Positions 19,014 through 23,296 of a stretch of 40,935 nucleotides of DNA are shown here, one piece after another. The DNA comes from an uncultured Lachnospiraceae bacterium (lineage in GTDB: Bacteria > Bacillota > Clostridia > Lachnospirales > Lachnospiraceae). Where the stretch lies: NCBI GenBank assembly GCA_902768735.1, contig CACXMK010000019.1:1-40935 (forward strand). Reading direction: 5' to 3'. Position 1 is the first letter of the stretch. Each line of letters starts with the position of its first letter. Both the position numbers and the translations under genes were made by a program. Below the pieces are notes generated by a model. The model was not told the DNA's origin, made no database searches, and saw only the letters and a list, made by a program, of their open reading frames with translations.

Positions 19014-20612
19014 TCAGTCGTCTCTGCGTATTTTGTTATATTCGACCTGTTCCTGTCCGGACTGTCCTGTTCCGAGCATAAGGTACAGGTCCTCATCGTC
19101 CGCGCGATACAGGATTTCTTTTCCTCCGGGGCCGGCCTCTTTAAAGATGCCGTCCCTGCAGTGCCAGATGATCTCCGTGTCTCCGACAGTGCCGGTGTGA
19201 TCCCGGTTCAGCATGACCGCTTGCGGATAGTTGCTCGCGTCGCTGCTAAGGACTTTGTCGTTGAGAGCATATCTGCCGGGAAGATCTTCGTATTCCCTCT
19301 GCGGATCGTGGTTCGAGAACAGGAACGAGCAGGCGGTCTGTCTGAGCGCTTTCTCTCTTAAAGAATCTCCGTCCCCGTCAGAGTACCAGTCCACAAGAAG
19401 CGTGCCGTCATTGTGTTCCGCCGCCGTGTAGATCCTCCGCATCCCGTCTCCTTTGTCCGGCGCGGGAACGGAGATGGTAAAGCCCCAGTCCTCGCGGCTT
19501 CCGCCAAAATACCACTCGCTCCGCAGGATCTGGTCAGAATCGTAGTCTTCCTCGATATCTTCGAGCACATCCTCTGTCGAATCATCGTCGTAATAGCGGA
19601 CTCTGAGCTTATCCGTATCCTCCCCGGCGTCCCCGTAAGTGAACACGACCTCTCTGTAGCCCTCCTTCACGGAAACCAGCGAATTGTCGAAGTAGGCGAG
19701 CCATCCCTCGTCGTTCTCATAGGCCCTGAAAGACGCGGGGATCCGGCTGACCGCCGCCTTGCCGTCCGCACTGTCTGTATCGTCGGACACCTTGCGGTAT
19801 TCGACCCTCGTACCGTCCATCTGCAAAAACAGAGACTCGCTCATGATCGTGAAGAACCGGACCTCTCCGCCCGCGGTATCTTCTTTGATCAGCCCGTCGC
19901 GGCTAAGCCACACGATATCCGTCATCTCCTGCCCGCCGATCCGGCCGGTGTGGTCTTCCGAAAGTACGATCTCAGCCGGATACTCCGTCTGTCCGTCAGC
20001 CGGAAGCTCCTCCCTGAGCACATACGTACCGGGAATGTAATCGTATTCTGTCTGCGGGCGGTGATCTGTCAGTTCGACGCTGTCAAGGATATCCGCCAGC
20101 GTATCGTCGATCCGTTTTTCCCGCTCCTCGTCGTTCTCGACGCTGCCCGTCCGCTCGATCAAAAGGACGCCGCCGTTGTGCTCCACTGCCGTGTACGCAA
20201 GCGTCGATCCCCAGCCGTTCCGGACCACATCGACATGGAAGGCCCAAATGTCTGCTCTCCCGGCAAAATACCCCTCGCTCCATTCCAGCCAGGAACCGCT
20301 GTAATCCTCCACCTCCTCCGCAAGGAGGATATCTGTGGAGGTGTACGGCAGGTAGCGGAACCGCAGCTTATTGACTCTGTTCTGTTCTCCGGTATAGGAA
20401 AACTCCGTGCCGTTCCAGACTTCCCGGACGTCAATGAGATCGCTGTCATACCGGGCGGACCAGCCGTCCTCGCTCTCGTATGTCTCCAGCGGCGTACTGC
20501 TCAGCTCGCTGGCGCCGGTGTTTTCGGCCGCTGCCGCTCTTTGGACGGAGCTTCCAAACACCGCCGCAAAGACAGCCAGGCACACAAGCACGGCCAGATA
20601 TCGATTCTTCAT
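19014..20612 (-). CDS. Exported protein with two copies of an unknown domain
   Basis: A 532-residue secreted protein with a Sec signal peptide (AVLVCLAVFAAVFGSSVQRA, cleavage after AAA near 28). The mature part is an internal duplication: each half starts with YESEDGWSARYDSDLIDVRE or YENDEGWLAYFDNSLVSVKE, continues through a F-Y-G-G/A-G-R-x-D-W-x-F/W segment (GYFAGRADIWAFHVDV; WYFGGSREDWGFTISV), a TAVEHNGGVLLIE/TAAEHNDGTLLVD strand, a short PGTYVLREEL/PGRYALNDKV linker and an SEDHTGRIGG/NRDHTGTVGD C-terminal beta unit. The same unit occurs once in the lipoprotein at 21500-22465. No catalytic motif is evident; a surface or ligand-binding role is only a guess. Confidence 0.85.
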   Translation of the reverse strand: MKNRYLAVLVCLAVFAAVFGSSVQRAAAAENTGASELSSTPLETYESEDGWSARYDSDLIDVREVWNGTEFSYTGEQNRVNKLRFRYLPYTSTDILLAEEVEDYSGSWLEWSEGYFAGRADIWAFHVDVVRNGWGSTLAYTAVEHNGGVLLIERTGSVENDEEREKRIDDTLADILDSVELTDHRPQTEYDYIPGTYVLREELPADGQTEYPAEIVLSEDHTGRIGGQEMTDIVWLSRDGLIKEDTAGGEVRFFTIMSESLFLQMDGTRVEYRKVSDDTDSADGKAAVSRIPASFRAYENDEGWLAYFDNSLVSVKEGYREVVFTYGDAGEDTDKLRVRYYDDDSTEDVLEDIEEDYDSDQILRSEWYFGGSREDWGFTISVPAPDKGDGMRRIYTAAEHNDGTLLVDWYSDGDGDSLREKALRQTACSFLFSNHDPQREYEDLPGRYALNDKVLSSDASNYPQAVMLNRDHTGTVGDTEIIWHCRDGIFKEAGPGGKEILYRADDEDLYLMLGTGQSGQEQVEYNKIRRDD

Positions 20613-21499: not shown

Positions 21500-22465
21500 T
21501 CACTCTTTCTCAAATTCGAAGACGGCGGGCTCATCGCCATCCGTTTCTTCGATCAGGATCAAAGAATTGCCCTCGATCACATACTCGTAGATCTGCTCTC
21601 CGGTCTCCGCGTTCAGGAGGATCCCCTCGCGGCTGTACCAGATGACCGGAACTTCGTCCTGGAAGCTGATAACGCCCGTGTGGTCTTCCTTAAGTTCGAC
21701 GAAATACTCCGCCGTCACTTTTTGTCCATCGATCTCCTCTTCGTATTTCTGCACGTACTTTCCGGGCACATACTCGGAATAGGTCTGCGGTTCATGATCT
21801 GTAAACTCAAAGGAATCCAGGATGGCCGAGATCGTATCGGAGATACTCATGCCTGTCGCCTCATCCGCTTCCTTATGAGAGTCGATCTGGACGAGCAGCG
21901 TGCCGCCGTTGTGCTCAACCGCGATGAACTCCTGGGAATCATCAGATCCCTCTTCGGGCGTGACCGCCACTCTCATGGACCACACGTCCTCTCTTCCGGC
22001 AAAATACCCCTCGCTCCTTGTATGCTCCGGAAGCCCGTCCTCATTCGCGATCGCGTCGTAGAGGACTTCGTCGGGCATCCTGTTCATAAAATAGTAAAAG
22101 CCGACAGAGTTGATCCCGGAGCTCTTACCGGTATAAGTGAAGTTCACTCCCTTCTCCGTCTTCTCCATCTCGACCAGGTTGCTGTCGTACCTGACAAACC
22201 AGCCGTCTTCGCTCTCGTATTTTCCGTCAAGCTCCCCGGAAGCTTCGCTGTTTTGACCCGCCTCAGCTTCTGCCGGGGCTGCTTCGCTCTGGGTCGCTTC
22301 TGCCGGAGCTGCCTCTGTAGGAGCCGCCTCTGCCGGAGCTGCCTCTGTAGGAGCCGCCTCTGCCGTGGCTGCCTGTTCCTTCGGTGCCGCTGTCTGGCCG
22401 GCGCAGCCCGCCGTCACCATCGCCGCCGCAAGAAGGATCGCTGCTAATGCCTTATATTTCTTCAT
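21500..22465 (-). CDS. Lipoprotein with one copy of the YESEDGW domain
   Basis: A 321-residue lipoprotein: signal peptide with lipobox VTAGC (Cys 21), then a 55-residue Ala/Pro/Glu/Thr linker built of repeated EAAPTEAAPAEA units that should span the cell wall, then one copy of the domain duplicated in the 532-residue protein (YESEDGWFVRYDSNLVEME, SEGYFAGREDVWSMRV, IAVEHNGGTLLVQ, EYVPGKYVQ, LKEDHTGVI). It is the first gene of the operon, and the start follows AAAAGGAGGC. Function unknown. Confidence 0.88.
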   Translation of the reverse strand: MKKYKALAAILLAAAMVTAGCAGQTAAPKEQAATAEAAPTEAAPAEAAPTEAAPAEATQSEAAPAEAEAGQNSEASGELDGKYESEDGWFVRYDSNLVEMEKTEKGVNFTYTGKSSGINSVGFYYFMNRMPDEVLYDAIANEDGLPEHTRSEGYFAGREDVWSMRVAVTPEEGSDDSQEFIAVEHNGGTLLVQIDSHKEADEATGMSISDTISAILDSFEFTDHEPQTYSEYVPGKYVQKYEEEIDGQKVTAEYFVELKEDHTGVISFQDEVPVIWYSREGILLNAETGEQIYEYVIEGNSLILIEETDGDEPAVFEFEKE

Positions 22466-22713
22466 AAATCAATGCCTCCTTTTATGTGTGTCTGTTTTCG
22501 TGTCGATACTTATTTTATAATTATAATAACTATAATCATATATCCTTTCTATGTTTGCTTCCGTATCGATGTATTATGATATACCTGTTTGTTCGGCGCT
22601 GTCGAGAAAAATTTTTCTTTCCGCGTGGATAATCTCAGTGGAGGGAGTATATAAAGACATAGAACGGAATTTCAAACGCAGACAAACTGCTATTTAAAAA
22701 AAGGAGAATCACA

Positions 22714-23016
22714 ATGAGCGAAATGATGGAAAACAAACTGACCGCTGATGAACTCGATGCTGTATCCGGCGGTGTTGGCAGACCGGAACTTAATGTAATC
22801 TCGATCACCCCTTACTGGGTAAAGGTTACCGCTTCCACCCTGAACTGCAGATATACCCCGAACGGCCCGAAGATCAAGTCCTTTGAATACGGCCACAAAC
22901 TGAAAGTCGACGGGATCACGGATGACGGCCAGTGGTACAGGCTTCTTGTCAACGACACCAAGCACGGCGGCCAGATCTACGGCTTCATCTTCAAGGCTTA
23001 TACCGAGAGGCTTTGA
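22714..23016 (+). CDS. Double-glycine leader peptide fused to an SH3b domain
   Basis: A 100-residue protein. Residues 1-20 end in LTADELDAVSGG, a classical double-glycine leader cut by C39-peptidase ABC exporters during bacteriocin and peptide secretion. The remaining 80 residues form a bacterial SH3 domain: VKVTASTLNCRYTPNGPKI, then KLKVDGITDDGQWYRLLV and GQIYGFIFKAYTERL. GG leaders normally precede small bacteriocins or modified peptides, not a folded wall-binding domain. AAAAGGAGAATCACA gives a strong ribosome binding site and a terminator follows at 23111. No exporter, immunity or modification gene is in the window, so it is an orphan here. It is divergent from the lipoprotein operon; the 248-bp spacer is AT-rich with TCGATAC/GTATCGA arms. 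Confidence 0.8.
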   Translation: MSEMMENKLTADELDAVSGGVGRPELNVISITPYWVKVTASTLNCRYTPNGPKIKSFEYGHKLKVDGITDDGQWYRLLVNDTKHGGQIYGFIFKAYTERL

Positions 23017-23038: not shown

Positions 23039-23296
23039 TTAGATAGTAAATAGTAAACAATTAAGTATTAAACAGTAAATAACACGTGCGCCGCAGCGCG
23101 CACATAGCGACTGCCCCGCAGATCCCTCAAGGGACCTGCGGGGCAGTTTTTTTGTCCTCCGCTCTGACCATTTGCCACAAAGTACCTCTCCCTTATGGCG
23201 TTCTGAAAAGCCCGATCCGCACCCGCACAGGATTCCCACAGCCAGCGCTGCCGCCGCGATCACGTTTCCGGTATTTCTGATCCATCTTTTAAACAC
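23039..23296 (-). CDS. Possible small lipoprotein, doubtful
   Basis: A GTG at 23296, 10-15 bp after TTAGGAGAG, opens an 85-codon frame. The first 30 residues look like a lipoprotein signal (MFKRWIRNTGNVIAAAALAV, then GILCGCGSG), but the later part runs through the plus-strand terminator and has no protein-like character. It may be a decayed gene. Nothing else was seen in the 368-bp gap 23017-23384 apart from the terminator. Confidence 0.25.
   Translation of the reverse strand: MFKRWIRNTGNVIAAAALAVGILCGCGSGFSERHKGEVLCGKWSERRTKKLPRRSLEGSAGQSLCARCGARVIYCLILNCLLFTI
23111..23153 (+). terminator. Intrinsic terminator of the SH3b gene
   Basis: CTGCCCCGCAG (23111-23121) pairs with CTGCGGGGCAG (23136-23146), with inner TCCCT/AGGGA extending the stem, followed by seven T. 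Confidence 0.92.

Follow-up and report, generated by a model that had tools for sequence, protein, structure and literature searches.

A double-glycine leader before an SH3b domain: a small, probably exported protein of an uncultured Lachnospiraceae bacterium

Introduction

Among described systems, MAM of Faecalibacterium comes close to the protein reported here. In the available text of PMC12184118, MAM has a short leader with the same double-glycine (GG) consensus, it is proposed to be exported by a peptidase-containing ABC transporter, and its cargo is found in the cell envelope. The NHLM/NHLP and Nif11 systems are also alike in that they combine an exporter of family TIGR03796, a GG cleavage motif and several precursors per genome. 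As the available part of PMC2887384 describes them, their precursors have a long leader, which is related to nitrile hydratase or Nif11, in front of a short and variable core, and the systems often include modification enzymes. SH3b domains of the same predicted fold as our protein occur in lysostaphin, ALE-1 and phage lysins, but there they lie within larger enzymes.

Here we analyse a gene, SH3-GG, that encodes a GG leader followed by a single SH3b domain in a 40,935-nucleotide stretch of DNA from an uncultured Lachnospiraceae bacterium (the whole stretch is called the window below). The protein departs from each of these systems. The MAM cargo is helical and without a known domain, and its transporter gene is nearby, whereas the window protein carries an SH3b domain and its gene is remote from an NHLM-type transporter; SH3-GG also has several paralogues, unlike MAM as far as the same text presents it (PMC12184118). 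Unlike the NHLP/Nif11 precursors, the protein has a leader of 20 residues and a conserved folded cargo, and the leader models TIGR03793 and TIGR03798 are not among its three NCBIfam matches up to E 5. Residues 8-22 weakly match the class II bacteriocin leader of the lactobin A/cerein 7B family (TIGR03949; E 0.16, below cut-off), but the window protein differs from these bacteriocins in its SH3b cargo and in that neither an immunity gene nor a gene for a partner peptide was seen next to its own. Finally, the SH3b domain stands alone behind a GG leader, unlike those of lysostaphin, ALE-1 and the lysins. Our searches of the open-access literature did not turn up a paper connecting an SH3 cargo with a GG leader or a C39 exporter.

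Results

The gene and its leader

SH3-GG is a 100-aa open reading frame with an ATG start at 22714-23016 on the plus strand, as read from the list of open reading frames and the sequence (Table 1). An earlier note on this DNA had given the gene a strong ribosome-binding site and a terminator of its own. The site, AAAGGAG, is there, and so is the terminator, but the latter begins about 95 nt 3' of the stop; its hairpin is absent from the output of a simple terminator scan of the window. By eye, the flanking open reading frames are lipoprotein and amylase genes. Two similar secreted or lipoprotein-like proteins with the motif YESEDGW..RYDS are encoded on the minus strand (19014-20612 and 21500-22465), one of them directly divergent from SH3-GG.

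Table 1. Features of the SH3-GG gene in the window, and loci of exporter-linked type-B genes and Cys4 GG proteins in related genomes.
Feature	Location	Strand	Remarks
Promoter-like element GTGGA-N17-GTATA	22625-22651	+	also before other SH3-GG genes; sole match in window
Ribosome-binding site AAAGGAG	22700-22706	+	7 nt 5' of the ATG; seen in sequence
Double-glycine leader MSEMMENKLTADELDAVSGG, 20 residues	22714-22773	+	C39 consensus, GG conservation, low pLDDT
Cargo, residues 21-100, and stop: short linker, then predicted SH3b barrel	22774-23016	+	Pfam, model, fold matches
Intrinsic terminator	23109-23154	+	hairpin then T run; -34.3 kcal/mol, z -6.58
Type-B exporter-linked regions	L124, L125, L126, L127, L130, L156, L159, L161		
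Cys4 GG proteins	L124:12568-13038, L125:518-859, L126:897-1319, L127:7186-7494, L130:13067-13480, L136:3453-3776, L141:14433-14825		adjoining the SH3-GG gene in L124, L125, L126, L127 and L130

The leader, MSEMMENKLTADELDAVSGG, fits all six positions of the consensus for substrates of C39 exporters (PCATs), as the available text of PMC12184118 and PMC6363468 gives it: L(-12), E(-8), L(-7), V(-4), G(-2) and G(-1). We searched the window and the fetched loci for this GG-leader pattern near an N-terminal Met and found it in 48 of 5820 distinct open reading frames of 50-200 aa, a proportion that is no rate because the loci were selected for such genes. Residue shuffles of the same set gave 0.2 matches per round. 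Inspected by eye, each of the 48 is a precursor of GG type (36 with SH3 cargo, 9 Nif11-like and 3 with a Cys4 motif), and the number of background frames that matched is zero.

Is the leader a constant part of the family? When relatives were sought with the cargo alone as query, a GG leader was present in 45 of 46 distinct frames, and the GG leader on an SH3b domain that the earlier note had proposed at 22714-23016 is confirmed as real. Homologues without a conserved GG leader, the outcome that the note had set against its own claim, were not found: the sole GG-less frame is a broken type-A copy on contig C148 of the same genome (L034:1172-1487). This search supersedes, as evidence of conservation, a first family alignment of 23 members in which Gly19, Gly20 and Leu14 are invariant (GG 23/23), the rows of which are not independent because most came from a GG-filtered list. 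Counted against export, Glu(-8) is kept in about two thirds of the 45 related leaders; in 16 a different residue stands there.

Of the seven matches that a leader-pattern scan gave in the window's own genome, two are real leaders, those of the window gene and of the broken C148 copy; the remaining five were rejected as wrong frames, long frames or frames without a start. The pattern missed both paralogues on contig C22, which have Asp before the GG. In a relative's locus, two adjacent genes (L164:32-307 and 366-638) have near-identical GG leaders and different SH3-like bodies, as if shuffled.

The cargo

Pfam SH3_3 matches residues 50-97 with E 1.3e-5 and 25.7 bits, below the gathering score of 27, and one sister protein of type B (described below) exceeds that cut-off with 30.4 bits. 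An AlphaFold model of the window protein forms an SH3-like barrel with strands from residue 28. In the model, residues 1-10 and 13-22 have pLDDT below 50 and a short helix spans residues 11-17; the leader lies outside the modelled fold, and burial of this segment in the fold, the other outcome that had been set against the claim, was not found. The fold starts about 7 residues after the GG; the proposed SH3b fold stands, but the proposed direct joining of leader and domain does not. The best PDB matches of the model include SH3b domains of lysins, ALE-1 and lysostaphin, none with E <0.001. This likeness of fold by itself suggests that residues 21-100 may bind peptidoglycan. An alignment shows that the second cysteine, present in nearly all relatives, is missing from the window protein.

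Three other loci (L168, L191, L192) encode SH3b domains of the same YLALR type in tandem, behind what by eye looks like a Sec signal peptide. Perhaps the YLALR-type SH3b domain is sent out by two routes, GG and Sec.

Distribution of the family

We searched 62 genomes of one uncultured genus of rumen Lachnospiraceae, and 19 of them gave a total of 52 matches to the window protein. An alignment-based search finds 20 of the 62, but the match in the additional genome, G015, is weak (26.7 bits) and lies in a frame of 261 aa; this genome is not counted among the 19. The loci from named genomes, mostly metagenome assemblies, belong to Lachnospiraceae (38/39) and Eubacteriales bacteria (1/39); one pair of loci is of roe-deer omasum origin, and the RUG-series genomes we take to be from rumen. 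Contig C22 of the window's own genome carries two further members, one of type A and one of the related type B. A profile alignment of the two types spans both leader and cargo (probability 96.3%, E 1.8e-9).

Beyond the genus, in 299 genomes of the wider Lachnospiraceae, type-A searches matched 15 genomes and type-B searches 18. Outside the own genome, no full type-A relative was found among the 299, only parts of frames of at least 268 aa. Leader and SH3 domain occur together in just four of them: the own genome, G071, G142 and G287.

An NHLM-type exporter on another contig

The earlier note had advised a search of the genome for a C39 ABC exporter, and we found one, of NHLM/NHLP type. It is the sole C39 match, and it lies on contig C7, another contig than SH3-GG; further C39 exporters could be missing because the genome is 85.5% complete. 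The transporter, encoded at L032:9020-11212 with its C39 domain in about residues 1-150, is an NHLM_micro_ABC1 (TIGR03796) with 896.6 bits against a cut-off of 853.3. Its ABC2 partner (TIGR03797) falls just under the cut-off (707.7 vs 709.4), and a short HlyD-like protein nearby (TIGR03794) scores 62.1 against 156.2. A STAS protein and a SpoIIE-like phosphatase are encoded close by; reading the list of open reading frames around the exporter by eye revealed no modification enzyme.

Across the genus, a C39 domain is present in 19/19 genomes with SH3-GG and in 16/43 without it (Fisher p 9.5e-7, with kinship ignored). NHLM ABC1 itself is found in 18/19 of the former and 14/43 of the latter; in the nineteenth, G010, the C39 match lies in a 554-aa frame. 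Two observations count against export: (i) a type-A match and an exporter never shared one contig across the genus genomes searched; and (ii) no C39 match was obtained in G071 (93% complete), which holds two SH3-GG genes. If export takes place in trans, this would account for the lack of an exporter next to the window gene.

The sister type B behaves differently. We read 40 exporter regions of 5 to 20 kb (the 39 ABC1 places of the genus other than the own one, and that of G010) and found a type-B GG-SH3b gene within 1 kb of NHLM exporter genes in eight of them. The earlier remark that no exporter is nearby is therefore right for the window gene but not for its sister type. In G287, of another genus, a GG-SH3b gene (L206) follows the end of an NHLM ABC2-like gene (tail 205 bits, best fit). 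In G142 the trans arrangement of the window recurs: its single C39 exporter lies apart from seven type-B loci, which are spread over six other contigs. Contig ends cut two of these loci, and two have an identical protein.

Several further genes were seen in these regions. GG proteins with a C-terminal, zinc-ribbon-like Cys4 motif form a second unusual cargo type in NHLM regions, and in five of the eight type-B regions one adjoins the SH3-GG gene (Table 1); the one Cys4 GG protein scanned had no Pfam match over cut-off. GG cargo proteins of 93 and 97 aa lie beside NHLM exporter genes in two other genera (L208:7500-7781 and L206:6250-6543), likewise with no Pfam match. Fourteen GG precursors, Nif11-like by eye, surround the NHLM exporter of G015 (L123:2188-13355). 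STAS, HATPase or SpoIIE-like phosphatase genes occur in NHLM regions L032:6225-8257, L124, L125, L127, L128 and L132; read mostly by eye, such genes at NHLM exporters appear to be placed as in partner-switching control.

A shared promoter-like element

The element GTGGA-N15/17-GTATA lies upstream of 23 of 49 SH3-GG genes, which are not independent because the genes are related; shuffles gave a mean of 0.05 and a maximum of 1 in 500 rounds. The other 26 lack it. All 49 genes were counted, including some with upstream stretches <160 nt and two of type B (L029, L030) that start at a Met later than is likely. A narrower pattern fits 21 of the elements, and most of these have the form CGTGGAT and [CA]GTATAT.

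In the own genome, the element matched 12 times, as often as a reversed-pattern control (12). Five of the 12 matches lie before genes: three before the intact SH3-GG genes, one before a gene for a PepSY protein and one before a lipoprotein gene. One of the five, on contig C59, is also inside an opposite-strand 191-aa frame; the remaining seven of the 12 fall inside frames >150 aa. Support for the element from the own genome consists solely of its place before all three intact SH3-GG genes. Five relatives gave 28 matches against 10 for the control, with a pattern that excluded the window gene's 17-base spacing; these matches are not independent because two of the genomes, G007 and G016, share several. 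Twelve of the 28 precede genes (7 SH3-GG, 3 lipoprotein, 1 PrsW and 1 YccF) and 16 lie inside frames. Ten of the twelve were assigned by script, and two, L248 and L252, were flagged as inside frames but lie before SH3-GG genes according to the upstream scan. By eye, the three lipoproteins of the relatives resemble that of the own genome, while PepSY, PrsW and YccF each follow the element in one genome only. The PepSY, lipoprotein, PrsW and YccF genes behind an element (L227:1501, L228:1527, L243:1527, L246:1501) make up a candidate envelope regulon.

What might read this element? A simple scan found no sigma-70 site upstream of SH3-GG on the same strand. The -35 half differs from that of sigma-W (TGAAAC), and the -10 half resembles that of sigma-W. 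No copy of the element was found at the exporter of the own genome. From these letters, it may be the promoter of a putative ECF-like envelope regulon.

What could the protein do if exported?

The earlier note had suggested an antagonistic or competence-like factor, and the evidence on selection and gene context does not support that suggestion. Among five orthologues, the window gene left out, the cargo has a dN of 0.01-0.03 and a dS of 0.19-0.46, which indicates purifying selection. No immunity, partner-peptide or receptor gene was seen by eye in the frames beside SH3-GG. In 8 related genomes the amylase gene is likewise the neighbour, in those of L039, L040 and L042 it is not, and the promoter-like element is also found before a few envelope-type genes. 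Conservation of the cargo, the fact that no immunity gene was seen beside it and the envelope-type genes behind the same element fit envelope maintenance better than competence or antagonism; similarly, purifying selection and the kept amylase neighbourhood are more in keeping with a surface role than with an arms race.

The same evidence bears on a bacteriocin-like antagonist, the exported SH3b domain of which would bind and harm the walls of competitors. The exporter is of the NHLM bacteriocin type, SH3b domains target lysostaphin and lysins to walls, and genomes hold several SH3-GG paralogues, all of which would suit such a role. We nevertheless consider it unlikely: a Pfam scan of the window protein found no catalytic domain, its cargo is conserved and not diversified, no immunity gene was seen by eye beside it, and the stable amylase neighbour and the envelope-type genes behind the element also speak against such a role.

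Alternatively, the protein could be a secreted signal or a regulator of the cell's own wall enzymes, in a competence- or quorum-like manner. Several exporter regions do encode STAS, HATPase or phosphatase proteins, a combination reminiscent of partner switching, and pheromones use the GG/C39 route according to the available text of PMC6363468. Set against this, no receptor gene was seen by eye beside SH3-GG and nothing ties the protein to a sensor. The known GG pheromones are, to our knowledge, smaller than about 80 folded residues, which we also count against a signal, and we judge this role to be quite improbable.

That the leader is a relic or coincidence on a cytoplasmic SH3 protein would agree with the absence of an exporter from the window and with the SH3-GG genes of G071, which lack a detected C39 exporter, but it is highly improbable given a GG leader in 45/46 frames found by cargo alone (far above shuffles), the near-identical leaders before different SH3 bodies in L164, and the confinement of SH3-GG within the genus to C39-bearing genomes.

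Discussion

Our preferred reading is that SH3-GG probably encodes a small cell-envelope protein, exported by a C39 NHLM/NHLP ABC transporter that is encoded elsewhere in the genome. From the sequences we infer cleavage, export, peptidoglycan binding, ECF control and an envelope role, as follows. The C39 domain would recognise the leader helix and cut after Gly20. Residues 21-100 would then be passed out by the NHLM-type transporter in trans and fold as a single SH3b domain, which would stay in or on the peptidoglycan of the producer. The window gene is one of several scattered SH3-GG genes with a common promoter-like element, at which an ECF-type sigma factor serving the cell envelope may perhaps act.

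A broader proposal can be advanced only tentatively: a bacteriocin exporter may have turned into a general route for wall proteins, with an ECF-type regulon, several SH3b proteins and one NHLM exporter in trans that together coat or reinforce the cell's own peptidoglycan.

The usual view of GG/C39 exporters is that they serve bacteriocins or pheromones, and genome mining therefore counts them as antimicrobial clusters. Here, the likely cargo of an NHLM-type exporter is a group of conserved domains that probably bind the wall; their genes lie far from that of the exporter and are partly linked by a common promoter-like element. A GG leader combined with an SH3b domain provides a search rule for further cases. 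Together with MAM, these proteins suggest that GG/C39 exporters may have a second job in gut Firmicutes, that of supplying the cell surface.
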